Source of the DNA: Rodentolepis nana
Taxonomy: Eukaryota > Platyhelminthes > Cestoda > Cyclophyllidea > Hymenolepididae
Assembly: GCA_900617975.1 (NCBI GenBank)
Contig: UZAE01012808.1
Location: forward strand, 1-31,393
Reading direction: 5' to 3'
DNA length: 31,393 nucleotides
A program made the translations under genes and the position numbers. Of the stretch, positions 5,016 through 29,113 are shown in pieces (within the stretch, counting starts at the first letter, position 1; each line of letters opens with the position of its first letter). The notes beneath the pieces were generated by a model, which was not told the origin of the DNA, did no database searches, and saw only the letters and a list, made by a program, of their open reading frames with translations.

Positions 5016-5078
5016 CTAAGCTCCACGAACTTCACAATCACGATCATCAAATTCTTTAATTTCTTCTTCATTATCGCC
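5016..5078 (-). CDS. DBF4: Last coding exon with stop codon
   Basis: 63 nt from acceptor TTTTCTAG to TAG at 5018-5016. It encodes GDNEEEIKEFDDRDCEVRGA, a strongly acidic C-terminus. Phase 0 matches the preceding exon. Confidence 0.75.
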   Translation of the reverse strand, partial: GDNEEEIKEFDDRDCEVRGA

Positions 5079-11000: not shown

Positions 11001-11672
11001 TATAAACGCTTCACGGTATTAATCGATTTACTAAGTGAAATCCATAGACTAGGGTATTCTGGCATGTATCCACTTGCATCTACCATTAATATTACGATAA
11101 AGGAACAAAATTAATGATAGAAACCACTGCAAACTCACATACGATGCCAGTGAAAGTGGGCTAAGCTAGCGATCTAGTCATCTCATTAAGGAACCACTTG
11201 CAAGCACGCAGACAAGAGACAAGCCAAGATCAAGAACATATTCAAAAATAAACGCATTCTTCTTCTTCTACCCCTTAGAATAGTCTACTTACATGTTTTT
11301 TCTAACTCATAATTTTAAAATTTTTTGTCAATAGCACAGTAACGAAAACACACAAGTTCTCGTTACACAGAAAGCTTCTTTCAGTTCAACTCGAACAATA
11401 CAAAATAGAGTATAATTCACACTAATTAATTTAACCATTTAAGGAATAATCGCTAGACCAACAATAAGGGGAAAAACAAGACACAAATTTCGTGGAGAAA
11501 ATATTTTGTCAATATTAAGGATCATATTTTTAACTTAACAAAACTCTGCCTTTGTATCATGACTAAAAGGTGGGCAAAAATAAAATGCTATTTAAAAACA
11601 TTTTTGTGACGATGATGATATCCATGGCATGAGTAAGAATCCTTAGTAAGAGTGATTTATGAATGCATCTGC

Positions 11673-11738
<66 letters not shown>

Positions 11739-14700
11739 AGTAAAGTAGCAAATCGAATTTCAAAACTCACCAGTGGCTTATTTTCTTCAAGTATGTCCTC
11801 ACCACAAACGTAAGATCGATGCTGCTCATACGTTATCGGTAGTGTTTCACCAGTGTCTTCTAAAACAGGCGACTTGTGCGGTGAAGTAATAGGTAAACAC
11901 TGACCATGCTCCCTTAATTCAGCAGTTTCACACCCTTCCAAAAGCGGAGAATTGGCAGAAACCTTTTCGTGAATTTTTTTCTCTTCCTCAAAAACTGGCA
12001 ACTGACTTAGAGATCGGTCATTAATAGGCGTATGATGATCCCCTTCTACTAATGGTACATCGTTCAAAACCGGAGATCGCTCAATGCTCTTTCCTAGCTG
12101 TTCACCGTTTGGTTCTGCGCCATCAAAGATTCTTGATGATGGACGCGAACAAACACTGGCATTCTGATTCGTCTGAGCATCAGATTCGGGATCAGGAGTA
12201 GCACTATGGGGTGCTCTTGGACAAAATGAATCAATGTCTCTCCCAGGTATATACTGAGACATCTAAAAATGAGAAGCACGCGACTGTATTATCTATCCAA
12301 AATGATCATTGTATTTGTAGATGGGATCAAATAATAATCATGAAAAATAGCTTTCCGGTTAATATATAACGAGTATGGTATCTTCATAATCAAACCATCG
12401 AATAGCAGATTAAGCAATAATGAGAAAATGAAACGCACAGTTTTCCAGATCGATGACAAATGAAGAAATGTGTAATTAAAAATTCTTTTGCCCATTAGAA
12501 AATCCGTTTTGAAAAATGCAAAATGATAAGAAAAACACCAACGGCTATTGAGATTGATAATTGAATTAATATTAAAGACAACTCCTCAGTATGCCTGAAT
12601 GTTTTCGCATTCAAAATAAAAATTTTAACCTCTGACAAAGTTCATTCATAACATTTGATCGATGCTGTTCATTGGAATGAATAAGTAAAAAGTGCAAACA
12701 ATATACAATAACCGCTTTCATTCCCTTTTGTGACAATGAAATTGTGGCATGGCAAATATTGATTTGTACATACATTCATTCGAGGTATTCTTAGTTGTAG
12801 GCGTACTAGAGGATTTGGTTAATAGAGATAAACCTCGTCTGTAAATCCAATTCATACCGATCATATGTTGCTTTTGAAAGATTGCCATTAAGAAACTCGT
12901 ATTATTTTAATGATAGAAACTAGTACAATACGAATTAGCCCATCCATGAAAATGTTTTTTCCATTCAATAGACAAAAGAACTAATGAAAAACGGAAGTTT
13001 CTAGTGAAGCACTGGTTGCCTTTATCAAACGAATTACAATTAAATCGAAAATAACGATCAATGATTTCTAAGACATACAAGTCATTTCAATTATTGTGGA
13101 AAATTGACGTTCGCTCGAGTAATAGTAAAGGCGTAGTTGAAATTTTCATCTTCACGATGATGCAACGTTTTTCCATTTTAAAATCCACCGCATATACATT
13201 ATAAAAACGAAAAATTTGCATCAAAATTATGCTTAAACTAGAGGCAAACGCTCAGTTTATAGTTATTTCGAAAGAGGTCAATGTGAGGAAAATTTCGTAA
13301 TTTTGTTGAAGATAAGCCCTAGCAATTTTCCATCGACATTATGGCATAAAAGACTATAATGAAAAACAAGACAAGCTCTTACTTTCTGCAATAAGTCCGA
13401 GGAAACTGTGGAAGGAATATGTGCAATTCCACACTTGCGGCATGATCTGAAACGTCCACCAATCTGCACAGAGTTCGAGGATGAGAAATCATTGGGTGAT
13501 TGATCATTATTCTCTTCGTTTTCCGCAATACGAGCACCAGGAAGTGCAAGAGTATTGCCGGCGGTGGAACCTTCTTGTCGTTGTTGATCAGATGAAGCTC
13601 GAACCTGATGAGCGCTTGTACCTATAAATTAATATATTAAAAAGAAGTTTATATAATTTCAACTTAGAATTGTTACCATAACGCTATCGCAACTGCATTC
13701 GAATACAATGTATAAACATATCTTGTACGCAACATTATTTCTTCGTTCATATGCGGTTAGGATATAGACCATCCATTTTTACCAGTTTCCTTTTCGTTTT
13801 CTCTACAGTTCTTTGTTCTCATTCACTACTGTCATTTATATAGTTTTAGGCTGCTAACACTCACACAAAATCGAATTTTGATTGCCGTTGTACAATACTT
13901 GTCAGTTCAATATCCTAACTAGACAACTACAGGACCTAACACTATACCTAATGAACTGATTATTCAAAGTTCTCCGATCAACTAAACAAAAAGCAAGGCA
14001 CACGCGTTCATCGACATATACAAAATGAATAATATTTTGTGGAACAAAAAAACAATAACGCGAATGCATATTCACAAATAGAACGGAATTCATACCGAAA
14101 TTTGCATTAAGAACGAAAGTGATGTAAAAGCAAAAGACATTGGATGGATGACAACATCAACATTCTCAAGTCGTAATAAAAAAATACCATTTGATGGCAG
14201 AAATCACAATAATAATTAGATCCAAACTCGTCCAACAGAATTTAAAATAAAACAAGAGCAAATTATCAGAGATAAAGGATAACGAAAAATCAACATCAAA
14301 AATAATAATAGACTAAATAAAACAGCTATCGAGTAGTCAGTTCATACAAAAGTAGAGACGTTTCTGCACACCAGAAAAGATTTTACAAAATGAATTTTCA
14401 AATCACAAGTGCATTAGAAGGGTTCATCCAGCATATGGTGGAGAAAACTTTTAATGGCAAGACTCAACAAAAGTCACTCAAAAAAACGAATACAACGTAA
14501 AAGTAACCAATAGTTCTAAGATTCTATCAAAAAATTTTAATCACTAACAATTATAAACAAAATATATAGAAAATAGCATACATAAACACAGAGTTATATT
14601 CAGATTATTTCCGACAGCGGGCCGTGTTTCATTCGAAGTTCCAGAAATATTAAAACAAACTTGGCATGAAGAACCTACAAAATTAATTAAGATATAGATC

Positions 14701-17700
14701 ACTAAGGCGAACTTACTACACGAAGGTTGGTAAAAAGTTCTAAAAAATGTCAACTTTAAATAGAACAAAGATTTGCACGATTGTACAAGTTCAAACATTA
14801 CTTCAGAGCCCCTTAATACGTACACACAACTGACCAATCATTCTATGTAAGGTCAGAATCATGGCAGGTTACACCTCAAAATAGCAAGTAATTTTCAACC
14901 CTTCAAACAACCAATTTTGAGATCAAGGCAAACATAAAATCTTTAAGTAAGGAAGCTTTACAACAGATTTATTATGAATCTGCACCAGGTAGAGCAGTCG
15001 TATGATTGGATTAAACTTGAAAATGAACTATAATGAACTTGAACTATAAATCAAGAAAACATCTCTCTTATGCAGAACCAAGTGGAACAAGATCGATAAG
15101 TTACCACTGGGGAAATTGTCAATCAAGTAACAATACCAAAAGAAACAGCATTATTCTAATTCTCACTGAAAATATTGAGCAAGCTTTCGGTGGGTACGGT
15201 GGATTCCAAAAGCGCGGCAAAAATAGCAACTGATCCAGAGAGCTAAATTTTCTTTAACAACTTCGGCAAAGATAGAAGCAAATGAAAATAGTTTTTTAAG
15301 TGCTATGTTACCGAAGATGAAACCTGGCACTATCAATTAGATCCAGAAAAAATATTCAATCAAGAGTAATTTTCAAAAGAAAAAACCTGAGTCTGGTAAT
15401 TTTAAAACTGAAAGTTTCATTAAGAAGGTAATGGGTACAAGTATTTGAGATTCAAAAGGAGTGGTATTAAACGATTTTAAAGGACAAAAAACGGACGTGT
15501 AAAGAATAATGAAATGATTTTGAAGAAAGTAAAGACGAAACTCGAGGCAAAAAGGAGTGAAAACTAAACCGATAAATTTGTTTCATTATTATAATGCCCC
15601 CGCATATTCCCCAAGGATATCCTGGACAATATTGCACGAATTTAGACGAAACATATCCACATTCGCCATAGAGCCTGGAAAAAACCCAGCCACATTTTTA
15701 CTTCCAAAACTGAAAGAACACTTTAAAATGACATGATTTACATCCAAAAATTAACCAAATGGCTGATAATTCCAAGGGTCCAAACACTGCGAAAAAAATC
15801 AAACATAAGGGAACTCAGGAGAGAAATCAAGATAACAAAAGAAGGAAGAACAATGGAGAAATGTAGAAAAATGGACACAATCACGCGTTAAATAAATAAA
15901 TTTTGGAATTTTAGCGACTCGCTCAAATAAAAAGGATAGATTTCAATAAAAAAGAGAGGCCAGAGTTAAAACACAGAAGTAAGATTGCGACAACTTAATT
16001 TAACACAATTAGGAAGACCAAGAAAAAGCCAAGGTCTTACCGGATATATCAACTCGACTACGACCGGAAGTTTGTCTTTCCCCACGATCACTTCGACGTG
16101 GCTCTATATGCACCACATTAAAAAGAATAATAATAAACTAAAAGCATACATTCATCCATAATCAACAGGCTACTGAGTCGAGCATATATAAACTGAGTGA
16201 AATATGTCAAAAACTCATTAATGAATGATTGCATAGCCAACAACAAATGAAAGACACAAACACAGTAAAGGAACCAAGCCCAATCTCTCAAAATCCTACC
16301 ATAATTTTCTGTGGCACCACCACCATAAGGACCCTGTGGTTGCATTTCCACTGGCGAAGGTGGCTCGGGCTCTAAATAAGTCACATCAGACAGTACAGAT
16401 TATAAAATTCCAACCACACAACTAAACCCACGAAACTCCATTTCCACATGGACAATCTGCACATATCATTCTAGGATTTCGCAACACACAAAACCAATTG
16501 CAGAAAAATGGGATTCGAAAATCGAAACCAACTGAGAAATCTCAACAAACTCACTAGGAATCAATACAATCATATTGGCAAATATGGTGAAATGGATACT
16601 CAAATACACAACCAAAAAAGAAAAAGACAACCACATCATGGGAACAAAACCAAATCCCTCGAAATCCTACCATAAGTTTCTGTGGGGCCACCACTGCTAG
16701 GATCCTGTGGTTGCATTTCCTCTGGCTCACGTGATTCGGGCTCTAAAGACAACATATATCAAACCCGCGAATATGGACATCTAATTTCAATAAGTCCAGT
16801 GAACAAAAGGTGACTGAATCCAGCATATACTAAACAAATCAAAATGCTAAAAAAATTGAATAACGAATTCTTGTGCAGTCGAAAGCAAATGAAAGACACT
16901 AACATAGCAAATGAACAAAAGTAAAACTCTCAATATCTAACCATAGGTTTCTGTGGCACCACCACTATAAGAATCCTGTGTTTGCATTTCCTCTGACCCA
17001 CATGAACCAGTCTCTAAAAACAACATATGAAATACGAATATGGACATATAGTCTCAAATAAGTACAGAAGATAAAAGGAAACTGGCTTGACCATATAAAA
17101 AATAAATCAAAACAATTAAAAATTGAATAACTAATGCTTGGGCAGTCCACAACAAATGAAAGACACAAACACAGTAAAGGAACCAAGCCCGATCTCTCAA
17201 AATCCTACCATAAGTTTCTGTGGCACCACCACTGTAAGGATCCTGTGGTTGCATTTCCACTGGCGAAGGTGGCTCGGGCTCTAAATAAGTCACATCAGAC
17301 AGTACAGATTATAAAATTCCAACCACACAACTGAACCCACGAAACTCCATTTCCACAGGGACAATTTGCACATATCATTCTAGGATTTCGCAACACAAAA
17401 AACCAATTGCAGAAAAATGGGATTCGAAAATCGAAACCAACTGAGAAAACTCAACAAACTCACTTATTGTTACACCTAGGAATCAATACAATCATATTGG
17501 TAAATATGGTGACATGGATACTCAAATACACAACGAAAAAAGAAAAAGACAACCACATCATGGGAACAGAAATGAATCACTCAAAATCCTACCATAAGTT
17601 TCTGTGGGGCCACTACTGCTAGGATCCTGTGGTTGCATTTCCTCTGGCTCACGTGATTCGGGCTCTAAAGACAACATATCAAACACGCTAATATGGACAT

Positions 17701-20700
17701 CTACTCTCAAACAACTACAGTACACAAAAGGTGACTGCGTCCAGCGCATACCAACCCATTAAACTCCTTTACAACCCGAAAAGCGAGTGCTTGAACAGTC
17801 AACAACAAACGAAACAGACAAGCACTGAATTGGAATCAAACCCAATCTCTCAAAATCCTACCATGATTTATTTGAGGATAACAACAGGCAGTAATCTGTC
17901 TTTGCATTCTCTCAGCTTCCTCTGTATCGACCGCTATGTATATTATGAAATACTTGATTAAGTTCTCTTTAATTTTAGACATTATATTAAAAATTTTACA
18001 CTATAATGACTTGTCCTCTATATTAAAGTAACAGACTATTGGGCGACATATGTAAATGCAATGTTTCTCGATATTAGATATGTATATTATCGAAATCATT
18101 TTAAAATCCTACCAAAATCCGGTACAATAATTTCGTCTTGTTCTGCGCCTATTTAAGTCATATTTTACTGATAATGTCATATACCTCAAGTAAACCGTAA
18201 AACTCGATTTCTAAATGGTAAATTTTCATAAACGAAAGCAGGAATTTGAAAAAAATCAACCGATTGAAAAAAATGAATTACAAAATCCTAACTACTTAAA
18301 CTTTAAAGTTTAGAAGAAATATCAGATTTAATAAAATAACAAAAATAAATTAAAAAATTCCCAAAACAATAGAAACGAAACAGTTTTAATTGCAAAAAAT
18401 GAAATAAATACGCACAATTTATACGCAACGACTCATAACACATTCGTGGACGCAATTCTTTCAAAGTAAAAAAAATTAATTGCGAAAGATCATGCAAAAT
18501 CAGTGGTAACTAAAATGCTTTTAAATATTTCCAACCGAGATATTAAGCGGCTATCATAGAAAGGTAAATCAGTATACTGAAATTAGACTATTCTAGCAGG
18601 TCAAAATGAAATCCTACCTTCAGGAGGGGCGTTCATATCATTGGTAGCTACAATTTCCATATTATCAGTGTTAACTAGAATTAAGATATCATAAATTCCC
18701 ATAACAAATGATTGACAAATTAAAATAGATTAAGACCCATGGAATTGCAAAAAGAGATAAATAATGCAAATAATTAAAACGTGATTTGGGCTCTAAAGAC
18801 AACATATCAAACACGCTAATATGGACATCTACTCTCAAACAACTACAGTACACAAAAGGCGACTGCGTCCAGCGCATATCAACCCATTAAACTGCTTTAC
18901 AACCCGAAAGGCGAGTGCTCAAACAGTCAACAACAAATGAAACAGCCAAAAAACAGAATCGGAATCATGCCCAATCTCTCAAAATCCTACCATAAGTTTC
19001 TGTGGGGCCACCACTGCAAGGATCCTGTGNATTAAGATATCATAAATTCCCATAACAAATGATTGACAAATTAAAATAGATTAAGACCCATGGAATTGCA
19101 AAAAGAGATAAATACTGCAAATAATTACAACCAAATTTATTCATTTTAATATTAGCCAATATATTCCCTTAAATTAATAATTTATTAATCAAAAGCACTT
19201 GGAAATTAAGCAGCATTGGAGGAAAATTTAGTCAAATACACAGAATCTGCAAGACAAAGAACTAATACATTGATTATTTAAATGCAATCGGCGACTTTCG
19301 ATTTTATACCGGAATCATAAGGTGCGATCGATACTTCCAGTCTAATTCGGGAGATTATCAACAAGTAGACCGCAAGAGAAGTCAATTAAATGGGCATTTT
19401 AGGTAACGAATGCTATACAAGGAAGATTTTGCCCGATTAACACCTACCAGTTGTAAAAGGAGTGGCAGTTGTGTAAGATTTACAGAGGCGACATATACCA
19501 TAGTCCAATTGACAAAACATCATCCAAAAGGAGACAGAACAATCAACTAATTAAGGCCCACGTTCAAAGATAACGTTCCCTGGACAAAATGCGCATTTGG
19601 GTTTAAACAAATTGATAACTTATTAACTGTTTCACAGGACAATCTTGACCATTAGAAGAATAACTCGATAGTCTACAACACCTAACAGTTATTAAACTAT
19701 AAAGTTAGAGGTGGTGCCACAATGAGAGAAATTCTAAATGAATTAGATTTGAAACATACAAATGTGAACTAAGCATTTTGATCTAAGACTGAAATATTGC
19801 AGTTATCTACCTTTTCAACCAACAACTCAGTTACCTATTGCATTCACTAGTTGTTTAGTTGAATTCGATTCCTAAATACACCACTTTATTTAAATGGGCT
19901 ATCTCGATACAACTAGTAAAAGGGAATCAAAAAGATGATTAATCGATTGAAACCAAAAATAAAGACCAGAAATTTTAAAGAAGTTTTATCAAATAAAATA
20001 ACACCTAAAAAGGAACGTCGAAGAAGTTGCAAAACCTACACTCAGTGCAAAGTGGCTGTTGGAAGGGTCTCCTTTGTGATGAAAAATTAAATACGTAGTT
20101 TCCTTGAAACCCAATACGAGAACGACCTTAAGAAAAGACGTCAATTGAGGCAGGATTAAACATCTTATCACCTTTCAACAGAAAATGCGAAACAAGAAAC
20201 GAAACGAGAAATGACGAAAATAATAACCATGTTCAGGTCCTACCGATTTGATCTGACGTAAGCCTTCTTTGTGCCGCTAGACAGAACATATCAGTTATAT
20301 AACGCAAAAATTTGAAAACAAGTACAATTGGTTTAACTTAAATTCTGAAGAGTCAGTATTAATAAAAGAGAGGCCAAATGCTTTCGAGTTGATATAAAAC
20401 CTACTAATAAACCTTCGTGACTGATATGTTGGAGTCGTGGAATTACCTGACAAATTGAAATAAATATGATAGGATTGAAATTGTTATGTTATGTCTGTAT
20501 CAAAATTAAAATGATAGCAGGCGATTCAGAGAACCAACACACTATTTCTTCTATTTCATAACAGAAGACGTTCAGAATCATGAACAAGAATTTAAAAAAT
20601 CAAGCATTGGTTTCAAAATGCAAAAATTTAGAAAGTACCATATTCTTCAACAGGAGAAGATTGTGCAGCTGAAATTATTATTGAGGTAAAAGTCACTTAA

Positions 20701-23700
20701 GTGAGATTTCATACTATCATCTCGGTTTCAGGTAAACAGAAATAGAGAAGAAATAAAACAGATTCTAAATTTTGATTTCAAAATGACAAAATCAGCTTTC
20801 AGTAGTTCTCAAAAAATAGGCATCAAAGGTTTCATACCAACGGGTTCCCAAAACACCTACCTGGAAAATCGTAGGTTTGGTCATAGCGACCAAAACCATA
20901 CCGACCATTATCGGTCTCTACAATTATCACAGCAACAACAAAAAGAAGATTAATTTCAGCATTTCGTTTCGATCAACGTAAATCGTTTCCCAAGTGGTTC
21001 TTAAACAAACACCAACGAATTCATATGCGCGATTTCTCTCAAAACCTACCATTAATGTCGTCTTGATTAACATAATGAAACCGATATTCTCTTATCTCTG
21101 AAATGATTACAAGAAAATGAATGAAGAGAAATTCAGACGATTAGATTACATCCCGATTTACTTAAATGGGTTTTCAGTGACAGTAAAACAATCATCCCCT
21201 GTAAGTTATCTTCAATGATTTGATTATCACCTACCTGGAACATAATCATATTCTCCTGAAACGTCTAAAAGTATCCCAAAATTAAAATAAGGAGAAAATT
21301 ACAATAATCAAGCATCACTTGTACTTCATCTGGATTTATAAGAACGTTAATGTGAGAACTAATAATAATATTTCATTTCGATCTACTCAAATTGGCGATT
21401 TCCATTGGTGCTTAAATAAAAGCTATCAGAAGCTCGATAGACAAAGATGACACTTCAATACCTACCCTGATATTCGTCATAATAAGAAGTTTCCGAACTG
21501 CCAAATTGCTCTTCTGAAAATTTTGAAAAAATCTTCAAGCATGATTTAAAACCACTTCGTCACTTCCATCTAATATTAATAAGAGGTAATTCAACGTGTT
21601 GAATATTGCAGAAAAAATAACGAAAGAGAAACAAATCAACCTAATATTACTGAATGCACAAATCACAAAAATACCTTCTTCCTCAGAGGAAGTGAATGAT
21701 GGAGTTAAAGCTACAGAAACAATATTGATATTAAAAAAATTATATCTTAAACGAAACGGTCAATCAACTTGCTAATCAGTCATTTTTCCTCCTTTCCTAC
21801 TAAATACATGTTAGAACTTAGGTAATCCTGCTTAAGTCAAAAGTGAAAAAATAGTTAAAATAGAAGCTTGAAATTGTAAGAATCATGAAGCTACCATATC
21901 CGGAACAATCGAGTACTTCAACGGGGGGAGACGATTGAGCTGAAAATACACAGGACAAATCAAGTAGTGAAATTGTATCTTAAACTCAGAGATAAACTGA
22001 AAAAATAGAACGTCTGGAAGGAACGACGGGTTTGATTCAGGAACAGGTAAAATTTAATCAGAAGCCAGAACCCACCATAGGTGATAGATACCGGTGAGGA
22101 TTGTTGTTCTTCTGGTACATGAATAACAGGTTCTAATAAAAGTTGTATAAATATACAACAATAAAAGGATATTTCAACACAAAAGAATTCCAAGTTAAAA
22201 TACATATGTTTTCACAAGCACTTAAAACACAAGTTAGCAAATTTCAAAACACGATGAGACATGTCATTTAATGAGATAAAATTACTCACAAAGCTGCTCT
22301 CGCAACACAGACGTTAGGAAATAAAAAAAAACAAAACAAACATCATAAAACCCTACCAGGACTAATAGATGAGCTCGAATCTATCCTTTCAACTAAACGC
22401 AAAGGAAAATTTTGGCCAATTAACTTGATTATTTCAAATTGATCCAAATCAGATTTCAAAAACTATATTCGTACCAGAACGATCAGAACTGGTACCTTGT
22501 TGGGTTGGTGAACTTTGCTGTGAGAAATTGAATACATGATTTTGGGCTGAAATCAAAGGAAACTGTCAAATATTCAATGAGGAAAGTTATTTCAAATCTA
22601 GTCATGTTTAAGCTAAATTTCTAGGTCATTCCTGGACTAACAGGCGTACGTTCCATTGTATGACACCAGAGGGCTTGGGATTTAAAGCGTTATGAAGAAC
22701 AGAACAAGAGCGCATGACAACCGCTACAATAATTGCTGATGTAGTAATATATTGCTTCTAATCACGTCAATGGACATCAATACGATGTAGGCAATAGACA
22801 AGCAAAGCAAAAAGGTACTCTGCTCCAAAGAGAGCCCTAGCTGGGACCAATGAATAAAGTTTTTACTTGAGGGTTGGGAACCAATTAGACGTGCCACGTT
22901 GAGGGCGAAAATTAACATCAAGAAAGTTTTTCACGTAACCAAACCAATCAATAGTTACTCAATGACAGAAACCTAACCAAGACATTTATAAAAGTAAAAC
23001 TCAAGCAGCTCCACAAAAAACAGCATTTTCAAAGGTGGAAATCGAAAAAGTTGTTGAATGCACAACATGAATCCCTAAATGTCTTCTAGAATTAACCGAA
23101 ATTCAGAGCATGATTAAAAATATCATTTGAACTTTGGGACGAATTTACGAAACACAAAACATCAGATGCCTAGAAAAAGTAAAATCATTCCTAACCTGTT
23201 CACAATAATATCAAATCAAAAAAATTATGCCTACCGGTTGGAGGGCGTCGCCTTCTTCGACGCGCAACTAAATAGGAAGCAATGGGGGAAATAAAATGCT
23301 ATATTGATGAATTAGATCATGAAACTTCAAGATCGAACACCACGTACAAAAATAAACACCAAACGAAAGTGTTTAAATGAACCAAAATTCAAAGGAGCAG
23401 AAACATGTCTACGGATTCACTTCAATAGAAAGATTAAACGTACCGAGACGTGGTAAACGATCTGAGAAAAAAGTAACATTAGAGAGGTATAAAAATAAGA
23501 TGAGCAGGCAACATTCAGAACGAAACTATACATTATACAGCATACTAAGTGGAAAATGAAAGAGACCGATAGAATTAAGTGAGTATACCATTGTTTATTT
23601 TGGTAAAAAGACCTTAAATGCAGCTACCCAACTTCCAATCAAGAAATGTAATGATTCCCGAGTTTTTTTATCATATTTGATTTCAATATTTCGCAGAACC

Positions 23701-26700
23701 AAAATAAAAAATGAGTGGAAGCAACGAGGGAAATGAAGGTCAAGTATTCGTCTTCAAAGATTTTGTATCCCCAAATAGGGAAGTAAATAGAAGTTAAAAG
23801 ATAAAATCGTATAACAACAACTTGGGCCTTCATCCAACAAATACCAATGAAACCTCCTGCTTTAGAGTAGTCAGCAGTCCAAAAATAAGATACAAAACTG
23901 AATAAAGGGGAATGGATTTAGGACAAAGATGTACATCAACTTGTATGATGTAATAGCAATTTAACAAATGGGCAAACCAAGAAAATTGAATTTGAGAAAA
24001 ACAAAGAACAATTACTTGGGTTAGGGTCCTCTCTAGGGGATGAAGGAGATGATGATTCAAATTCAGGAGAATCTTGGTAATAATCATCTTCATCCGGTTC
24101 ATCTTCCTCGAAGAGTAGCCGTTCACGTTCAGGTGGTTGGCGATAAATTGGAGTAAGTGGTGGAGGAAGAGGAAATGATTCAGGTAATGGCCTTGAGTGA
24201 ATTTCTCGGTGATAATTCCCTACACGTTGATGAGGCAAATCTGAGGTCCTAGCAACTGGCGCCACGGGACTAGAGTGCAAGAAATTGATATTCATAAAAT
24301 GTTATCTATTAATAAAGAGAGCACACAGCTTTCTAGTCGGACACGTGGATGCATAGCTACAGAAAAGAGGAAATAGTTTGGAGAATGGTTTGATGGATTT
24401 AGTCCATGGGACGTGGCATGATTAATTCATCACTTTTCCATCCGAATAGCATATGCAACGAATTTAAATGACTTAAAAAATGACACTGTAAACAGTACAA
24501 GGACATGCTTTATTTTCAGCAAACAATCGTATACAGCTAGGAACCTCAAATTTTATCAATTTCGCCCGGATTCCTTCGAATCGAGATTAAAACAAGACAA
24601 GGTAAAAAGGACCTGCAAAGGTCACCCCCCCCCCCCCCCCCCCCAACATACGCATACACGGGAAATAGCTAGATGGGAGCTGCTTTGGTAGCTCAAGGTT
24701 AACTTACATGACGAGATTCGAATTGGTCTCTAAAGTTTGTAATGGGAATTTTAAACATAATCTAATATGTTATATTGCATAAAACCGCGGATGAACGATT
24801 ATGCACAAAATCAAGACGAATAAAAACAACTAAAATTTTCCACTACCTTAGCTATGAATGCAGTAGGCAAATAACGTTAAGATGAACAAGAGGATATTAC
24901 GTAGTAACATTGATTGACATGAGAATATGAGCAACCCAATGCCCACAGAATGGTCTTAACACTACGACTTCAACTGCCAAAATTTGTTAATACTCACTTA
25001 TTGACTTTTCCAACGTTTCTTGTTCTGCTTATAGACACACCTTGGTATAATTAAAAGTTTCTAAACAATCTGGTACCTCTATGAACAAAATAAGAATTAG
25101 ACTGAAGAAGGCACTGCAATACATGGTTAATTAGGCCAAATGATATAAATAAAATAGAAAGGTCACCTACAGTGTTCAGATAAAACAATTACGAAAGAAC
25201 AAACCCAGTGACTATTCAATGGGCCCATAAAAAGCCACTAAGTATCAAGTAAGAATGCTACTTAGCAAGTCTAGAAACAATGCCAATATATCGATAAGAA
25301 TAGCAGAAGCCTATGAAGGAAAAGTGAATAGCATAAATGTAATCTCAGAGTATAAAAGTTCATTGGTTCACATTTAGCATTGTGAATAACCAACCGTGCT
25401 GACTAGTCCTGGTGGACAAGAGGATTGGCAAAATGAGAGCTTCTCATTAGTCATTGTAGGATACCTTTCCTCTATCCGAGTTAAATACTGATAAAACTTG
25501 ATGAGAATGGGTCCTGATTACTGACACCACTCTTACATTTCTCTATTTTACATAATTAATACTACTTTAAATAATGATAAAGTAAAACTTACTCCGTATC
25601 GGGTCTGCCGGGCGCCAAATATGGAGATTGGACCACAGAAGATGAAGGCTGGTCGGTTGGTCCGTGTAGATAGTTCCTCAAATCTGACTCAAGTGATTCG
25701 AAAGTACTAATAGCATCGTCTATACCACGGAAGTTTTCGGGATTGTTTGCAAATGCCATATGTTCGCTAGAGTGTAGGTGCTGATGGGAATTTGAAAATA
25801 TTAGTTAGGATACTATTATCCTATTGTATGTAATGGAGTACTAAAACGGCGTCAATGCTACACTTTTCCAACAAAGGGGAAAAGACAAGGAAGTCCATTG
25901 CAAAAGTCCTGCACAAGAGTATTAGTTCGCATAACCAGCCACCTAAGCTATTCAAAAAGAATAGCCAATAAAATCCCCATACCTTTCAAACTAATAACGA
26001 TCCTAAAATAGAGAACTAAGAATTCGTGTACTAATAAACCGGATATCGCGTTGCTGAATTAAATTGCTACCTTAAATGCCAATAGTAACATCAATTTTAG
26101 CGACTAAAAATTACAAACTATCGCTAAAAGTTGTAAAGAAAAAGCCACCCTAAGGGAATATCATTGGACCATTTCAGGCTCTTTATCTCTAAAAGCATAG
26201 ATAAAAAGTTATAACTATGAGTGCACACATGCTGATCGATTTTGAGACCCCCATTAATACTTCACAGACCTAGCTTAGTCTTTTCCCACAATTCATAAAG
26301 TTCACGACAAATAAAATCTAAAGCATCCTAGTAAAGCAAATTCATGTAAGATAGTTTCATGATGCTGCATTCGTCATTAAAGGGGAAAAAACAAGATAAT
26401 GCAGTACATACAAATAAATGGCCCCTCAAGCATCATTCAAGCACAAGATCAACTGACATCCGATCTTTTAAAATCGGAAAAATTGAAATAGAATAAATCG
26501 CAAAATACAAACCAATTTTAACACTTCGCTCTGGAAAAACAAACTTACTGCAATTTTACTCATTAATTCAATAGATAGGATGTAAATTGAGCCCACTCTG
26601 TCTCTAACTCTCTTAAAATCAAAAGAAATGAAGCTTCCATGACAAAAAGGGTAAACTATATAAATTGAGCTATAAAGAATTCTATTTATCTCTAATGCTA

Positions 26701-29113
26701 TTTATTCTAAATTTTCTACTGAAAGTTATGCACGCTGGATCTAAGACGAATCTTCTGTTTAAATCTCATAAATACATTCCATAATGATGTCCAATTAAAT
26801 AATATCAAAAAAATAAAGCGACACAAATGCAAACGAAATAAAAAACAAACTAGTTAAATTAACTTTAAACGTACGTCGAAAAGGCCTCTCAACATCTAGA
26901 AACATTTAAAATTTTTACACCATTTTTCAGAAATAAGGAAAGTGGAAACAGATTAATTGAAATTGCGACCGTGACATCTGGGAAGATAATGCAGAAACAA
27001 GGAGATATGACCCACCTCATAAAGTTGCGGGAAAAAAGTAGCACACAATTCACAATATCCACTTGGTTCTTCCCGCCTTATAGATCTAAAGAAAAGGCAT
27101 CATGACGTCAAATAAGTTAAAGAAAGTATAAATCATGACAGCAAGCGGCACTAACCTCAGTGAACGCCTTTCAGACCCAGTATGACCCGTCGCCGCAGGA
27201 GATTCACGTTGCCTCGAGCCAGAGGGTACAATACGGGAAGCGCCAGTAGTTTGACCGATGGGTGCTGTGATAGGATGTTGAGTTGAAGTAGAAGGCACGG
27301 CTGTTTGTCTTGACTGCCCGGACATTGTAGGGGTAATGAGGATGGGAGGCCGGGGGGTCCCTTCCGATCCAGAAACGGGATGGGATGGACCAGCAGCCGT
27401 ATCTGAGGGCCTAGAGGAGTCGGAAGGTATTATCTCCCGAAGGCTGGGCCAGAGTGCCCTCACAAGGTTAGTATTCTCTGCATAAAGTGGCCGATATTGA
27501 TTCCGCCTTTCGGTCACTTTGGCAGCTGCTCCTTGAAGGGGTCGAACTGGAGAAAAAAATGGAAAATTTGAATAAGGTAGGATTATCCATTTCTGAAACA
27601 ACCAGGTACATCTACAATATGAAATGCATCTTGAAGCTGTTCATATGAGAAACGTTTTACCACCTCTCTAGTATCCGAATTTAACGAAAGCTCTGGTAGA
27701 TAACAACCTCATTTATGCGGATTTGGTAGAAGTGCATTACTACAGCTAAAGATGCTTTAGGTAAGATGACAATCGTACTCATTTCGAAGGATAAAGAGGA
27801 AAACCAAATAATAAAAATTATAAGTTTTCAATCAACTTTCTCAGAAATGTGAAATTTGGATGTAGTCAAAAGCAGCAAAAAGAAAAATCTGAGTACGAAT
27901 CATAACTACCTGAGAAACTTGCTATGTGAATGAATCAAGAAAGGAATAGGGCTTCATCAATTTTCCTTACAACAAAACATGGAGAAGCCATCTACGACTA
28001 AGTTGATAAACAAGCATTACTCAAAAGAATATTCAGTTTGAGTTTTTCTATTGGTAGGTTAGTAAAATGTGATACCTCTTGCTACTTGATACGATAAGGA
28101 ATTAAATAAAGCATATGCCCCTAAAGAGAAGAAATTAGATCTTAAAGGCCATATTGAGGAAAAAACCGTTAATAAATATAAGTTGATTCGTGACTGAGAC
28201 GTGACCAAAATTTTAAAACAAATGATTTAAACTCATAGTCTAACATCAGCTTAACAGAGAAATCCACATCAAAAAGGTAATCGCTAGTTCTTTAAAATAG
28301 AAAAGAAGAAAATAACAATTAATTAGTATTCTAAACTTGATTCAAAAACAATGAACACAAATATAGCTTAATCACTGCCTGAATGGATTATTAAACAAAT
28401 TACACGGAATAAAATACAAATAACAACTCACCATTAAATCTCCTGTCAATATCTGGGTCGAAATAATGAGAATCGGGTTCCTCGTCATTTCCCTGTAAAA
28501 TAGCAAACCATTTAATAAGATGGCCGCAGACTGACTTGTTAAAAAAATATAACTCACAGATATTGCTCTCAGAACATTTTCAGGAAGTCTTTCAATCATC
28601 TCCCTGATCTCTGAAATAAGACAAAAGTAAAAAACAATTGATGACTCAAAATTAAAGTTGATAAAAATTACGGTTGATTAAAAGTTAGATTACCACGAAC
28701 CTTGAAGAGTAATTAGACGAATTCCATGTGCTCGAGCTTGGGAAAGAGCATCATTCGGTCTGGGGGTCGTTCCTTGGTTTGCGGCCATAACCATAGCTCG
28801 ACCTCTAGAAAGTGGAGTAAGAGATGAAGATGGTTGAGCGCGTTCGGCTGAGGTAGGTGATTGTCGTGTTTGGGCTGAGGTAGGTGATTGTCGTGGTTCA
28901 GGATTGTAAATTACGATTTCTACAGACGTATCGAAAAATGGCCTTACATCCTGAAATAAATGGACGTAAATTGGGACATAACATTTTCAGAAGCATATAA
29001 ATTAAAGCGGGACATACAGCGCCGAGTCTACACAAAATTCTTGTCAATTGATCTGACCGGGTTAAGTGCAAGAAAACCTTCTTGCCAGTAAGGGGAAACA
29101 ACTGGGCAGGCAT
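5016..29113 (-). CDS. DBF4: DBF4/Chiffon-like regulatory subunit of Cdc7 kinase, split over at least 41 exons
   Basis: DBF4 (Chiffon in Drosophila) binds and activates Cdc7 kinase, which phosphorylates MCM helicase to fire replication origins in the nucleus. All three family motifs are read from the spliced frame. Motif N is a BRCT-like fold from GKKVFLHL (residues 10-17) through ARAHGIRLITLQEIREMIE. Motif M is VTERRNQYRPLYAENTN (164-180). The motif C zinc finger has C295, C298, H308 and H314 with the family spacing x2/x9/x5. Exons 1-8 encode these. At least 23 phase-1 microexons follow (23235 down to 16041), then exon 13383-13621, then ten exons joined at phase 0 to the TAG at 5018-5016. Summed coding length is about 4.36 kb (about 1,450 residues) without any exon lost at the 19030 gap. 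An in-frame TAA precedes the ATG at 29113. The exon model is mine from splice sites and phase; the family call is strong. Confidence 0.85.
5305..5364 (-). CDS. DBF4: Penultimate exon (60 nt)
   Basis: 20 codons, phase 0-0, acceptor TCTCTAG and donor GAG|GTATTC. It encodes ADNTTVNASISCQNAHPSSE. An alternative donor (A|GTGAGG) lies seven bases earlier but would break the frame into the last exon. Confidence 0.65.
5406..5486 (-). CDS. DBF4: C-terminal exon (81 nt), probable repeat unit c
   Basis: 27 codons, phase 0-0, acceptor TATCGCAG and donor ACC|GTAAGT. It contains SKGVWRLLTFNSDDATSSV, loosely alignable with units a and b (Trp-Arg...Phe-x-Ser). The donor lies inside a short palindrome at 5393-5407. 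Confidence 0.7.
5722..5808 (-). CDS. DBF4: C-terminal exon (87 nt), repeat unit b
   Basis: 29 codons, phase 0-0, acceptor TTTTTAG and donor GAG|GTATTT. It includes KSNWTRKRVFTLSSTDSPSD. The pattern x-R-K-x-x-F-x-L-x-S-x5-S-x-D/S-x-E is shared with repeat unit a. Confidence 0.75.
6973..7059 (-). CDS. DBF4: C-terminal exon (87 nt), repeat unit a
   Basis: 29 codons, phase 0-0, acceptor TTTGCAG and donor GAA|GTAAGT. It includes RPCSRKSFALRESNRIISSD. Same length as, and alignable with, the exon at 5722-5808. Confidence 0.75.
7614..7703 (-). CDS. DBF4: C-terminal exon (90 nt)
   Basis: 30 codons, phase 0-0, acceptor TTTTTTCAG and donor TTG|GTATGA. It encodes SSIEETEDNVDTPKASKLEE then ICVNTITDSL. 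Acidic. Confidence 0.7.
7704..8931 (-). other. Intron (1.2 kb); nothing recognised
   Basis: AT-rich, no phase-compatible exon, no repeat seen. Confidence 0.6.
8932..9117 (-). CDS. DBF4: C-terminal exon (186 nt), Ser/Asn-rich
   Basis: 62 codons, phase 0-0, acceptor ACTAATTTCAG with a long pyrimidine tract and donor CTG|GTAAGT. It contains KLILRRVNRT and SSPRARSLPHILQSSQ. A plus-strand ORF over the same bases is its shadow. Confidence 0.75.
9734..10006 (-). CDS. DBF4: C-terminal exon (273 nt), charged and helical
   Basis: 91 codons, phase 0-0, acceptor GCTTAG and donor CAG|GTGTGA. It includes GPREHVEEQERRNARLPRRA and SLVAREAIGLSMQALFTPTK. The middle reads as a charged helix and the sequence looks less repetitive than its neighbours, so it may be a real interaction module. 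No family recognised. Confidence 0.75.
10541..10566. repeat. (AT)13 microsatellite
   Basis: 26 bp of AT dinucleotide, 23 nt past the donor of the 10590-10748 exon, in the same relative place as the longer tract near 11700. Confidence 0.95.
10590..10748 (-). CDS. DBF4: C-terminal exon (159 nt) with another SPxLED motif
   Basis: 53 codons, phase 0-0, acceptor TTTTTAG and donor CGA|GTAAGT. It contains PQRSPILEDDET, related to the motif in the preceding exon, then Ser-rich sequence with several Ser-Pro sites. Confidence 0.75.
11676..11735. repeat. (AT)30 microsatellite
   Basis: 60 bp of pure AT dinucleotide in the intron, beginning 35 nt past the donor of the 11771-12262 exon. Confidence 0.95.
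11771..12262 (-). CDS. DBF4: Large C-terminal exon (492 nt) with SPVLED-type repeats
   Basis: 164 codons, phase 0 in and out, acceptor TTTTTAG and donor CTG|GTGAGT. It begins exactly with ATG (MSQYIPGRDIDSF). It holds four spaced copies of a short acidic motif: RSPVLNDVP, QLPVFEEE, NSPLLEGCE and KSPVLEDTGE. Ser-Pro sites suggest phosphorylation by proline-directed kinases; that is inference. The motif continues in the next exon. Confidence 0.8.
12263..13382 (-). other. Intron (1.1 kb); nothing recognised
   Basis: AT-rich, no open phase-compatible exon and no repeat seen. If the downstream ATG at 12262 were used separately, a promoter would have to lie here; I see no clear one. Confidence 0.6.
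13383..13621 (-). CDS. DBF4: Exon linking the microexon array to the C-terminal block
   Basis: 239 nt, phase 1 in and 0 out, acceptor TTTATAG and donor AAA|GTAAGA. It encodes a Ser/Asn/Gln-rich stretch followed by GGRFRSCRKCGIAHIPSTVS. The C-x2-C pair could be half of a small metal site, but no partner pair is seen nearby. It ends the phase-1 series; all later junctions are phase 0. Confidence 0.75.
13622..16040 (-). other. Large intron (2.4 kb); nothing recognised
   Basis: AT-rich sequence with no exon that keeps phase. A short plus-strand ORF at 15033-15230 appears to be chance. Confidence 0.6.
16041..16103 (-). CDS. DBF4: Last microexon (63 nt, phase 1-1)
   Basis: Acceptor CATATAG, donor G|GTAAGA. 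It encodes PRRSDRGERQTSGRSRVDIS plus the split Gly codon. Basic and Arg-rich, with an ordinary GTAAG donor unlike most of the array. It joins in phase to the exon at 13383-13621. Confidence 0.7.
16300..16371 (-). CDS. DBF4: Microexon type A, copy 1 (72 nt)
   Basis: Acceptor TTTAG, donor G|GTAGGA. The peptide is EPEPPSPVEMQPQ then GPYGGGATENYG. Confidence 0.75.
16671..16742 (-). CDS. DBF4: Microexon type B, copy 1 (72 nt)
   Basis: Acceptor TTTAG, donor G|GTAGGA. The peptide is EPESREPEEMQPQ then DPSSGGPTETYG. Confidence 0.75.
16942..17013 (-). CDS. DBF4: Microexon type C (72 nt)
   Basis: Acceptor TTTTTAG, donor G|GTTAGA. The peptide is ETGSCGSEEMQTQ then DSYSGGATETYG. It is clearly homologous to types A and B but with an unusual donor (GTTAG) and a cysteine. 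Confidence 0.7.
17209..17280 (-). CDS. DBF4: Microexon type A, copy 2 (72 nt)
   Basis: Acceptor TTTAG, donor G|GTAGGA. The peptide is EPEPPSPVEMQPQ then DPYSGGATETYG. Copy 1 at 16300-16371 differs at four residues in the second half. Confidence 0.75.
17593..17664 (-). CDS. DBF4: Microexon type B, copy 2 (72 nt)
   Basis: Acceptor TTTAG, donor G|GTAGGA. The peptide is EPESREPEEMQPQ then DPSSSGPTETYG, differing from copy 1 (16671-16742) at one residue (Ser for Gly). Confidence 0.75.
17862..17921 (-). CDS. DBF4: Microexon type D (60 nt), diverged copy in the duplicated array
   Basis: Acceptor GATACAG, donor G|GTAGGA. It encodes EAERMQRQITACCYPQINHG. It sits where copy 2 of the duplicated unit should carry type C and keeps the EM/RMQ core position. 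It is 12 nt shorter and otherwise rewritten, but the frame is open. Confidence 0.55.
18113..18148 (-). CDS. DBF4: Microexon (36 nt, phase 1-1)
   Basis: Acceptor TAAATAG, donor G|GTAGGA. It encodes AEQDEIIVPDFG. Acidic and hydrophobic, with the usual final Gly codon split by the intron. Confidence 0.6.
18618..18674 (-). CDS. DBF4: Microexon (57 nt, phase 1-1)
   Basis: Acceptor ATTCTAG, donor G|GTAGGA. It encodes NTDNMEIVATNDMNAPPEG. It is unlike the duplicated 72-nt exons in sequence but shares their phase and donor. Confidence 0.65.
18680..18780. repeat. Direct repeat copy 1 of a gap-flanking intronic segment
   Basis: 101 bp matching 19031-19131 with two differences seen by eye. On the minus strand it forms the intron that leads into the exon at 18618-18674. 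At its other end it is fused to the first 12 bases of a truncated microexon (18781-18792). Confidence 0.9.
18781..18792 (-). pseudogene. 12-nt 5' stub of a type B microexon
   Basis: The bases match the acceptor side of the type B exon (AG|AGCCCAAATCAC), then switch abruptly to unrelated intron sequence. The flanking intron 18793-18990 matches 17665-17861. The break is probably an assembly misjoin rather than a real truncated exon. Confidence 0.6.
18991..19029 (-). CDS. DBF4: Partial microexon of type B, cut by the assembly gap
   Basis: 39 nt from the gap to donor G|GTAGGA, encoding QDPCSGGPTETYG in phase 1-1 style. It matches the 3' half of the 72-nt type B exons at 16671 and 17593. Its 5' half is lost at the N. 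Confidence 0.65.
19030..19030. other. Assembly gap (single N) inside an exon
   Basis: The only ambiguous base in the window. It cuts a 72-nt type microexon after 39 nt and is followed directly by a second copy of the sequence at 18680-18780. This is the signature of two contig ends joined without resolving a tandem repeat. Confidence 0.85.
19031..19131. repeat. Direct repeat copy 2 of a gap-flanking intronic segment
   Basis: Second copy of 18680-18780, offset 351 bp, beginning right after the N. Either a real duplication or the same locus assembled twice. Confidence 0.9.
19031..20041 (-). other. About 1 kb of the array region without a convincing exon
   Basis: This stretch lies between microexon 21/22 and the N at 19030. 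GTAGG donors occur (for example near 19445) but no AG acceptor gives an open phase-1 exon. Given the gap beside it, exons may be missing from the assembly or decayed here. Confidence 0.5.
20042..20068 (-). CDS. DBF4: Tentative microexon 22 (27 nt, phase 1-1)
   Basis: Acceptor AAGGAG with a weak pyrimidine tract and donor A|GTGTAG give a frame-preserving exon encoding PSNSHFAL. A stronger donor two bases on (GTAGGT) would break the phase pattern. It may be an exon fragment or a chance match. Confidence 0.3.
   Translation of the reverse strand, partial: TLPTATLH
20244..20276 (-). CDS. DBF4: Microexon 21 (33 nt, phase 1-1)
   Basis: Acceptor TGTCTAG, donor G|GTAGGA. It encodes AQRRLTSDQIG. From here the array approaches the poorly assembled stretch around 19030. 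Confidence 0.65.
20405..20446 (-). CDS. DBF4: Microexon 20 (42 nt, phase 1-1)
   Basis: Acceptor TTTGTCAG, donor A|GTAGGT. It encodes NSTTPTYQSRRFI plus a split codon. One of the few microexons ending in A rather than G. Confidence 0.6.
20639..20668 (-). CDS. DBF4: Microexon 19 (30 nt, phase 1-1)
   Basis: Acceptor ATTTCAG, donor G|GTACTT. It encodes AQSSPVEEYG and is the shortest copy of the QSSPVE...YG motif. Confidence 0.65.
20861..20917 (-). CDS. DBF4: Microexon 18 (57 nt, phase 1-1)
   Basis: Acceptor ATTGTAG, donor G|GTAGGT. It encodes TDNGRYGFGRYDQTYDFPG, with repeated Gly-Arg-Tyr. The peptide looks like a Tyr/Gly/Arg low-complexity segment. Confidence 0.7.
21050..21097 (-). CDS. DBF4: Microexon 17 (48 nt, phase 1-1)
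   Basis: Acceptor CATTTCAG, donor G|GTAGGT. It encodes IREYRFHYVNQDDING, aromatic and Asn/Asp-rich. Confidence 0.7.
21235..21264 (-). CDS. DBF4: Microexon 16 (30 nt, phase 1-1)
   Basis: Acceptor CTTTTAG, donor G|GTAGGT. It encodes VSGEYDYVPG. One of the two shortest exons in the array. Confidence 0.65.
21466..21513 (-). CDS. DBF4: Microexon 15 (48 nt, phase 1-1)
   Basis: Acceptor ATTTTCAG, donor G|GTAGGT. It encodes EQFGSSETSYYDEYQG, Tyr-rich with spaced aromatic residues. Confidence 0.7.
21675..21710 (-). CDS. DBF4: Microexon 14 (36 nt, phase 1-1)
   Basis: Acceptor TTCTGTAG, donor G|GTATTT. It encodes LTPSFTSSEEEG, Ser/Glu-rich. Confidence 0.65.
21895..21939 (-). CDS. DBF4: Microexon 13 (45 nt, phase 1-1)
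   Basis: Acceptor TTTTCAG, donor G|GTAGCT. It encodes QSSPPVEVLDCSGYG, related to microexon 19 (AQSSPVEEYG) in peptide and, at both ends, in DNA. Confidence 0.7.
22076..22132 (-). CDS. DBF4: Microexon 12 (57 nt, phase 1-1)
   Basis: Acceptor TATTAG, donor G|GTGGGT. It encodes PVIHVPEEQQSSPVSITYG. It carries both array motifs: QQSSPV and a final Tyr-Gly across the splice junction. Confidence 0.7.
22357..22392 (-). CDS. DBF4: Microexon 11 (36 nt, phase 1-1)
   Basis: Acceptor GTTTAG, donor G|GTAGGG. It encodes ERIDSSSSISPG after the shared Val codon. The intron to the previous exon is only 82 nt. Confidence 0.65.
22475..22546 (-). CDS. DBF4: Microexon 10 (72 nt, phase 1-1)
   Basis: Acceptor GATTTCAG, donor G|GTACGA. 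It encodes a Gln/Ser/Asn-rich peptide containing NFSQQSSPTQQGTSS. QQSSP recurs in later microexons. Confidence 0.7.
23235..23267 (-). CDS. DBF4: Microexon 9 (33 nt, phase 1-1)
   Basis: Acceptor TTTAG, donor G|GTAGGC. After the shared codon it encodes ARRRRRPPTG, a run of five arginines that could act as a nuclear localisation signal. It is the first microexon of the array. Confidence 0.7.
24016..24269 (-). CDS. DBF4: DBF4-like exon 8: Pro-rich and acidic linker
   Basis: 254 nt, phase 2 in and 1 out (CCA A|GTAATT). It encodes a Pro/Arg-rich stretch (PLPESFPLPPPLTPIYRQPP) followed by an acidic block (EEDEPDEDDYYQD) and a Ser/Pro end. No known domain. It is the last ordinary-sized exon before the microexon array. 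Confidence 0.75.
24625..24644. repeat. Poly-C tract (20 C)
   Basis: Uninterrupted run of 20 cytosines after GTCA in an intron. A similar run of 19 after ATCA lies at 30915. Confidence 0.95.
25593..25780 (-). CDS. DBF4: DBF4-like exon 7: second half of the motif C zinc finger
   Basis: 188 nt, phase 0 in and 2 out (GA|GTAAGT). It starts HLHSSEHMAFANNPENF, giving His-x5-His and the usual H-x-x-F/A tail of the DBF4 finger. Joined to exon 6, the spacing C-x2-C-x9-H-x5-H equals that of the vertebrate family. The remainder is a linker. Confidence 0.9.
27016..27085 (-). CDS. DBF4: DBF4-like exon 6: first half of the motif C zinc finger
   Basis: 70 nt, phase 2 in and 0 out. It encodes SIRREEPSGYCELCATFFPQ then LYE. 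GYCELC is the Gly-Tyr-Cys-x2-Cys opening of the DBF4-type zinc finger. The donor is GAG|GTGGGT. The two histidines come from exon 7. Confidence 0.9.
27156..27546 (-). CDS. DBF4: DBF4-like exon 5: Cdc7-binding motif M and Pro/Ser-rich linker
   Basis: 391 nt, phase 1 in and 2 out, with acceptor TTTCTCCAG and donor AG|GTTAGT. Residues 163-180 include VTERRNQYRPLYAENTN, which matches motif M (V/K-x-D/E...YRP-L/F-Y), the segment that contacts the Cdc7 N-lobe. The rest is low complexity, rich in Ser, Pro, Thr and Gln, as is usual between motifs M and C. Confidence 0.85.
28432..28492 (-). CDS. DBF4: DBF4-like exon 4: acidic linker
   Basis: 61 nt, phase 0 in and 1 out, acceptor TTTTACAG and donor GTGAGT. 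It encodes GNDEEPDSHYFDPDIDRRFN, an acidic linker between motifs N and M. The flanking exons carry the identification. Confidence 0.8.
28558..28610 (-). CDS. DBF4: DBF4-like exon 3: last helix of motif N
   Basis: 53 nt, phase 1 in and 0 out. After the codon shared with exon 2 it encodes IREMIERLPENVLRAIS. With the previous exon this gives ITLQEIREMIE, the helix that closes motif N in DBF4 proteins. Acceptor ATTTCAG and donor GTGAGT are both strong. Confidence 0.85.
28701..28950 (-). CDS. DBF4: DBF4-like exon 2: second half of motif N
   Basis: Acceptor TTTCAG, 250 nt, phase 0 in and 1 out (CAA G|GTTCGT). It starts DVRPFFDTSVEIVIYNPEP, which fits the BRCT strand after LGA. It then has a tandem RQSPTSA pair, and ends with SRGRAMVMAA and NDALSQARAHGIRLITLQ, matching the RGKA...S.A.SWGV.I family signature. 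The insert between the two BRCT halves is Ser/Pro/Gln-rich. Confidence 0.85.
28846..28895 (-). repeat. Tandem 27-bp period repeat inside exon 2
   Basis: A 23-bp string occurs at 28846-28868 and again, identically, at 28873-28895. It encodes two RQSPTSA peptides, so a short in-frame tandem duplication has lengthened the linker inside motif N. Confidence 0.85.
29018..29113 (-). CDS. DBF4: DBF4-like exon 1: start codon and first half of BRCT-like motif N
   Basis: 32 codons from ATG to donor GCT|GTATGT, phase 0. It encodes MPAQLFPLTGKKVFLHLTRS then DQLTRILCRLGA. The L-x-G-K-x-V/F-x-L-x-L pattern opens the BRCT-like motif N of DBF4, followed by the helix ending in LGA. The frame stays open upstream for some distance without another ATG until an in-frame TAA, so this is the first Met. 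The 5' UTR extent is unknown. Confidence 0.85.

Follow-up and report, generated by a model that had tools for sequence, protein, structure and literature searches.

How does a conserved regulator of DNA replication come to be followed by a long run of very small exons, and what would such a run do to its protein? The question is raised by a 31,393-nucleotide (nt) stretch of the tapeworm Rodentolepis nana (contig UZAE01012808.1 of assembly GCA_900617975.1, C3002 in our numbering; hereafter the window), which has a G+C content of ~35% and belongs to a draft assembly of 107 Mb in 4,701 contigs. Judged from its sequence, a minus-strand gene running from 29113 to 5016 encodes the flatworm DBF4, the activator of the kinase that starts DNA replication, and between its core and its tail lies an array of 23 complete small exons. 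We consider it reasonably probable that this is a two-part DBF4, in which a fixed Cdc7-binding core would be followed by a splice-tunable, lysine-free arm built from symmetric mini-exons.

Gene model and identity

The model comprises 42 exons and 1,448 codons with no internal stops, its start codon and every exon border being predictions. The last core exon (E8) ends in phase 1, the first tail exon (T1) begins in phase 1 and the array exons hold phase 1 between them; all of these fit and the joined frame is open over the 1,448 codons, which speaks for a single gene. The core exons are as follows, with the basis of each in brackets.

29018..29113, minus: E1, proposed start exon, first part of motif N (model; weak yeast Dbf4 match)
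28701..28950, minus: E2, remainder of motif N (model; weak yeast Dbf4 match)
28558..28610, minus: E3 (model)
28432..28492, minus: E4 (model)
27156..27546, minus: E5, motif M-like stretch AKVTERRNQYRPLYAENTNL (model; 3.7-bit human DBF4 segment, not recovered alone)
27016..27085, minus: E6, motif C zinc finger, first half (Pfam and PDB matches)
25593..25780, minus: E7, motif C zinc finger, second half (Pfam and PDB matches)
24016..24269, minus: E8, last core exon, acidic, phase 1 at end (model)

A Pfam profile search of the core returned the motif C zinc finger (zf-DBF, PF07535), which scored 48.2 bits where 24.8 is the cut-off, and gave no hit for motif N, and the top matches of the core in the PDB were yeast DBF4 (4.6e-8) and human DBF4 (1.4e-4). 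A six-frame search for zf-DBF across the 107 Mb assembly yielded a single match, namely the gene at 29113-5016, in a search that runs exon by exon and that a differently split copy could escape. The upstream stretches are putative motifs N (BRCT-like) and M, and the motif M-like stretch gave a collinear 3.7-bit segment with human DBF4 that includes YRPLY, only inside a long query. Metazoan DBF4 and Chiffon have the order N-M-C with a zinc finger. This order is correct along the core, with weak matches for N and M and a motif C well above its cut-off, and the DBF4 identity that the first-pass annotation had drawn from these three motifs is thereby upheld. The core, E1-E8, should bind Cdc7, as far as these matches can tell.

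Over the first 40 residues from the predicted start codon, a hydrophobicity scan (rather than a signal-peptide predictor) gave a mean of 1.0 for the strongest 10-residue window, with none strongly hydrophobic. Code 9 is the mitochondrial code of flatworms and echinoderms. COX1 of the same assembly requires AAA to be read as asparagine: table 5 would put lysine at DRKFSS, CYKFLV and GFKLCF, and under code 9 these positions are asparagine, as in solved COX1 structures (alignment to 8ugh). The COX1 also resembles that of flatworms, and a flatworm source fits on the assumption that its contig is no contaminant.

The array of small exons

The 23 complete exons between E8 and T1 measure 18-72 nt and total 1,173 nt, or 27% of the coding length. 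Every one of them (23/23) has AG and GT borders, a length divisible by three (3n), phase 1 at both junctions and an open frame in phase 1, although our search targeted 3n phase-1 exons and this uniform symmetry is hence partly by construction; the further tests are independent of it. The first-pass annotation had described 23 small exons in 16041-23267, all of them, where complete, 3n and in phase 1 at both junctions. Both statements agree with our results, the count being made up of 22 complete exons and a 39-nt piece at 18991-19029. Its size range of 30-72 nt has to be widened to 18-72 nt by an 18-nt exon just beyond that range (23444-23461), and its additional tentative exon (ending 19448) was left out, as it works only at 99 nt, with a weak acceptor and residues unlike those of the others. 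The array reads as follows, on the basis of phase-1 open frames and splice borders unless another basis is given.

23444..23461, minus: a1, 18 nt
23235..23267, minus: a2, 33 nt
22475..22546, minus: a3, 72 nt
22357..22392, minus: a4, 36 nt
22076..22132, minus: a5, 57 nt
21895..21939, minus: a6, 45 nt
21675..21710, minus: a7, 36 nt
21466..21513, minus: a8, 48 nt
21235..21264, minus: a9, 30 nt; 21-nt form possible via other in-frame acceptor (phase-1 open frame)
21050..21097, minus: a10, 48 nt
20861..20917, minus: a11, 57 nt
20639..20668, minus: a12, 30 nt
20405..20446, minus: a13, 42 nt
20244..20276, minus: a14, 33 nt
18991..19029, minus: partial copy of a 72-nt array exon (QDPCSGGPTETY), 39 nt, cut by N at 19030 (repeat comparison)
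18618..18674, minus: a15, 57 nt
18113..18148, minus: a16, 36 nt
17862..17933, minus: a17, 72 nt; 60-nt form possible
17593..17664, minus: a18, 72-nt repeat family (repeat comparison)
17209..17280, minus: a19, 72-nt repeat family; 51-nt form possible (repeat comparison)
16942..17013, minus: a20, 72-nt repeat family, donor GTTAGA (repeat comparison)
16671..16742, minus: a21, 72-nt repeat family (repeat comparison)
16300..16371, minus: a22, 72-nt repeat family; 51-nt form possible (repeat comparison)
16041..16103, minus: a23, 63 nt

Donors of the form GGTAGG number 16 on the minus strand and 0 on the plus strand of the 10.4 kb at 13622-24015, compared with 0-3 in each of 40 strands of 10 kb sampled as background from this genome, which places their density at ~15x background. 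In a donor-centred test, where the best-scoring upstream AG was taken by rule for each GGTAGG donor, the resulting length was 3n at 14 of the 16 array donors and at 17 of 39 background donors (P=1.2e-5 against 1/3; P=3.8e-4 against the background rate), and at 11/13 when three recent extra copies were removed (P=2e-4 or 3e-3, respectively). All 14 rule-built 3n exons of the array were open in phase 1, compared with 8/17 in the background; nine coincide with exons of the model, four differ from it in taking another in-frame acceptor, and the remaining one is the tentative exon of 99 nt. At a9, a17, a19 and a22 a second in-frame acceptor outscores that of the model by the rule, and alternative acceptors could possibly provide finer in-frame variation at these four exons.

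A codon model trained on the other exons scored the array at +0.60 bits per codon in phase 1, with 0 stops in 368 codons; phase 0 of the same exons gave +0.18 bits per codon and 6 stops, phase 2 +0.20 and 28. Intron windows of the same length scored -0.37 +/- 0.06 bits per codon and held ~23 stops, never <8 in 2000 draws, although the gap in score is somewhat flattered as the background of the model was taken from those introns. Because codon statistics favour phase 1 and GGTAGG donors are dense, it is very unlikely that the array exists by chance alone. Its donors also form a separate class, with G at position +4 in 17/23 (recent copies counted) and in 1/18 of the other donors of the gene.

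Repeat comparison shows a18-a22 and the partial copy to be tandem duplicates including their introns, so that at least these five complete 72-nt repeat exons and the partial copy go back to the tandem duplication of an exon together with its intron. The partial copy, 39 nt of one further 72-nt exon, is open in phase 1 and truncated by the N at 19030 (within 18675-19138), which connects two blocks, both duplicates of adjacent intron and exon sequence, and is likely to be an assembly gap that may hide further exons. The remaining 18 of the 23 exons lie outside this recent family; QSSP words common to a3, a5, a6 and a12 may point to an ancient homology, and exon pairs outside a18-a22 reach a z of at most 5.0, scarcely above shuffles. 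A genome-wide search with 16250-17700 and 20200-23500 (17701-20199 being left out, and rarity unproven) found no array copies outside the contig, and the region 16001-23500 had no copies in 20 background loci. The same retroelement-like sequence stands at both window ends (264-513 and 31139-31393), in opposite orientation and with 86% agreement across 255 bases; several of the 20 background loci contain similar, scattered pieces, which take a tandem-repeat form in contig L019.

Exon symmetry and the lysine-free stretch

Behind the array follow eleven tail exons, all of them based on the model.

13383..13621, minus: T1, phase 1-to-0 adaptor exon behind the array
11771..12262, minus: T2, symmetric phase 0, SPVLED-like motif repeats
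10590..10748, minus: T3, symmetric phase 0
9734..10000, minus: T4, symmetric phase 0
8932..9117, minus: T5, symmetric phase 0
7614..7703, minus: T6, symmetric phase 0
6973..7059, minus: T7, symmetric phase 0
5722..5808, minus: T8, symmetric phase 0; KEN motif arises at T8/T9 junction
5406..5486, minus: T9, symmetric phase 0
5305..5364, minus: T10, symmetric phase 0
5016..5078, minus: T11, terminal exon, acidic end, stop

Symmetric exons account for 0/7 of the internal exons of the core and 9/10 of those of the tail, all nine in phase 0-0 (P=4e-4), or for 32/33 against 0/7 when the tail is counted together with the array, for whose exons symmetry was a search criterion. Skipping any one internal core exon is predicted to shift the frame, whereas skipping any exon behind the core except T1 is predicted to keep it. 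Even with the whole array omitted, E8 joined to T1 at 13383-13621 remains in frame, and the earlier statement that any subset of the small exons is frame-neutral is thus confirmed. The predicted phases describe a presumed Cdc7-binding core that is locked in frame and, behind it, exons that could nearly all be left out without a frameshift, a contrast that adds to the first reading of the sequence. T2 and T3 (10590-12262, minus strand) also carry a repeated SP[VIL]L[EN][DG] motif (SPVLND, SPLLEG, SPVLED, SPILED), which might serve in docking or phosphorylation, while the KEN motif at the T8/T9 junction may be due to chance.

The predicted protein has 27 lysines, 3 of them by residue 163, 24 from residue 908 and none in residues 164-907. 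This run of 744 amino acids (aa), or 51% of the protein, starts in the core, spans the array and stops where T1 ends; when the predicted protein was shuffled 5000 times, no run exceeded 522. The array holds 0 lysines in 391 residues where its own codon-position composition predicts 15.1, and the corresponding counts are 3 against 12.8 in the core and 24 against 23.4 in the tail, such that the gap reaches into the core as well as the array. Arginine is retained where lysine is gone, with 3 lysines and 79 arginines in residues 1-907 and 24 and 37 in residues 908-1448 (P=9e-8), and the array exons read in phase 0 contain 35 AAA/AAG codons. Likewise, in the zinc-finger alignment the lysines of human and yeast DBF4 are not present in the flatworm protein. 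The genome is not generally lysine-poor, because a neighbouring single-exon frame has 47 lysines in 501 and 23 unselected open frames of >=130 codons (not verified genes) have a mean of 5.2% lysine and a longest lysine-free run of 152. With E, S, P, Q and T abundant, L scarce and both W and K absent, the arm encoded by the array is probably disordered.

Lysine deserts have been delimited as lysine-free stretches of >=150 aa or >=50% of a protein (PMC10665810; this and all papers below are drawn on in excerpt), and residues 164-907 of 1,448 exceed both figures, given the full-length model, so that DBF4 resembles lysine-desert proteins in its long lysine-free stretch. Such deserts are reported to be prevalent among ubiquitin-proteasome components (PMC10169902), and DBF4 does not appear in the main text of either paper, their supplements lying outside the search. 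We infer that selection confines the ubiquitin-acceptor lysines to the tail.

In flatworms, micro-exon genes (MEGs) stand on their own and mostly encode a signal peptide, and by analogy the array could be a separate micro-exon gene with its own start, nested inside a DBF4 intron and sharing its frame by accident. Among 75 ATG-led frames in 16041-24015, six combine a hydrophobic start with a plausible phase-1 donor (two being the same frame), and three such frames, from 22205, 18702 and 17982, enter a5, a15 and a17 in frame and use their donors. However, 29/75 start hydrophobic, which we tentatively ascribe to T-rich tracts before acceptors, and these hits say little. No array exon closes the frame, the DBF4 exons on either side have the phase that the array needs, and a nested gene would not account for the absence of lysine in core, array and T1 alike; we regard it as highly improbable. 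A further open frame in the window (1845-3344, plus strand) is a single exon that encodes 499 aa, including a proline run and ends rich in Ser and Lys, for which there was no Pfam match near cut-off and a best PDB match of E 0.068.

Fixed or variable inclusion of the array

Several points weigh against the two-part reading. The core and tail borders were set by visual inspection of splice sites and open frames. In the PDB, the motif N part matched yeast DBF4 chains at E ~0.6, with an unrelated hydrolase ranking first (E 0.09), and the motif M-like stretch queried alone did not recover the human DBF4 match. The true exon number near 19030 is uncertain because the N sits between duplicated blocks. 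A generic splice-chain score gave the array 42 in phase 1, 33 in phase 0 and 17 in phase 2 and was not decisive, with L019, a background contig of retroelement tandem repeats, level at 43; we dropped it as a test since its generic donor weights undervalue GTAGG and L019 scores as high. The idea that weak donors mark regulated skipping was likewise rejected, the array donors being not significantly weaker (P=0.053). Across the five complete 72-nt copies (ten pairs), the proportions of non-synonymous and synonymous differences (pN and pS) are about equal and give no sign of protein-level selection in this family. Exon-versus-intron divergence was dropped as proof of selection for the same reason and because mosaic duplications make many flanks non-homologous, which inflates the low P values; between a19 and a22 the exon differs at 4/72 positions and the upstream intron at 4/150, with the exon no more conserved. 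In the array, leucine loss and tyrosine gain are statistically stronger than lysine loss, and the tentative 99-nt exon holds one lysine that, if the exon is real, would fall inside the lysine-free stretch.

The N between duplicated blocks and the near equality of pN and pS would suit an array that is in part a collapsed or falsely duplicated repeat, its copies decayed or made by the assembly and without function. Yet 3n length and splice borders are intact in 23/23 exons, their 368 codons contain 0 stops compared with ~23 in introns, and 18/23 exons stand outside the recent 72-nt family, which makes this explanation barely credible.

The main rival to skipping is that the mini-exons are in the DBF4 mRNA but constitutively included, to give a repeat-built disordered linker with no isoform variety. 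Elastin and titin PEVK have many small same-phase exons, and tandem exon duplication yields same-phase exons automatically. AG and GT borders at all 23 exons, and donors that are not significantly weaker than elsewhere, are also in keeping with constitutive inclusion. However, this shape of exon is linked to skipping in flatworm MEGs and in SmVAL6 (PMC7653826, PMC5422958, PMC7957364), and the donor class of the array departs from the rest of the gene; we judge constitutive inclusion to be somewhat unlikely.

The nearest precedent for the DBF4 array is found in the flatworm micro-exon genes, SmVAL6 of Schistosoma mansoni above all. Like the flatworm DBF4, SmVAL6 has a conserved domain and then, in one gene, a run of C-terminal micro-exons, its C-terminus being MEG-like and alternatively spliced (PMC5422958, PMC7957364), but it is a tegument-linked SCP/TAPS protein and not a nuclear cell-cycle regulator. 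As a group 2 VAL it is not expected to be secreted (PMC5422958), and the first-pass view of such arrays as known from secreted proteins, which holds for MEGs, was therefore too narrow. MEGs share with the DBF4 array consecutive small symmetric 3n exons in a flatworm, with exon duplication inside the MEG-26 family (PMC7653826, PMC5825161). MEGs consist to ~80% of short exons of 6-36 bp and their products are described as secreted or membrane-anchored nearly without exception (PMC5825161); they are said to be without known domains (PMC4413821), and micro-exon organisation is among the proposed gains of parasitic flatworms (PMC4398949). A MEG run has been defined as >=4 consecutive exons <70 nt and divisible by 3 in a gene of >=7 exons (PMC7653826), and here, among 42 exons, a4-a16 form a run of 13 (a4-a14, or 11, if the partial 72-nt exon is counted). 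In contrast, exons <70 nt amount to 18/42, below the half expected of MEGs and reaching 25/42 only with 72 nt allowed, zf-DBF is a known domain, and the small exons make up 27% of the coding length and stand behind it.

Aphid bicycle and megacycle genes have many small internal exons, nearly all beginning at codon position 2 (PMC9168663), which is the exon phase of the DBF4 array; they are putative effectors of another taxon, likened by description only, and the resemblance would be convergence at most. Metazoan DBF4 and Chiffon resemble the flatworm gene in having N-M-C and then a long extra C-terminal part. In Drosophila Chiffon this part supplies the CHAT complex with a second protein and is reported to be conserved within insects only (PMC8917357), hence the first-pass label 'DBF4/Chiffon-like' stands for DBF4 and is loose as to Chiffon; a mini-exon array is not mentioned in the excerpt of that paper. 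No earlier report of a DBF4 micro-exon array was found in the literature searched, which excluded most subscription journals.

We prefer the two-part reading over fixed inclusion only to the degree given at the outset. The sequence establishes the gene model, its phases, the coding signal, the tandem duplication and the stretch without lysine; from these we infer a single DBF4 mRNA containing all 23 exons, transcripts that omit some of them, and selection for the loss of lysine. Tandem duplication of exons plus introns, all in one phase, would have produced a run of interchangeable small exons behind the kinase-binding core, and this array of at least 23 phase-1 mini-exons, followed by symmetric phase-0 exons, would encode a long, probably disordered arm. 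Gain, loss or skipping of exons would then alter the length and short motifs of the arm, leaving the core and the tail frame as they are, and the number of lysines, the usual ubiquitin acceptor, would stay constant whichever array exons were included. It is a more doubtful proposition that there are many DBF4 proteins with one core and differing lysine-free, tyrosine-enriched arms, providing stage- or tissue-specific versions of the kinase whose targeting varies and whose acceptor lysines lie only in the C-terminal tail; we think this unlikely.

Symmetric micro-exon arrays in flatworms have been discussed as a means to vary secreted or surface proteins that face the host. If the two-part reading is true, a nuclear housekeeping gene, here that of a replication regulator, can acquire such a structure, and the origin of arrays by same-phase tandem exon duplication would be separated from the host-parasite explanation. 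The passage from a non-skippable core to skippable later exons, together with the lysine-free stretch, would offer tests of whether splicing and turnover of a replication kinase are tuned jointly.

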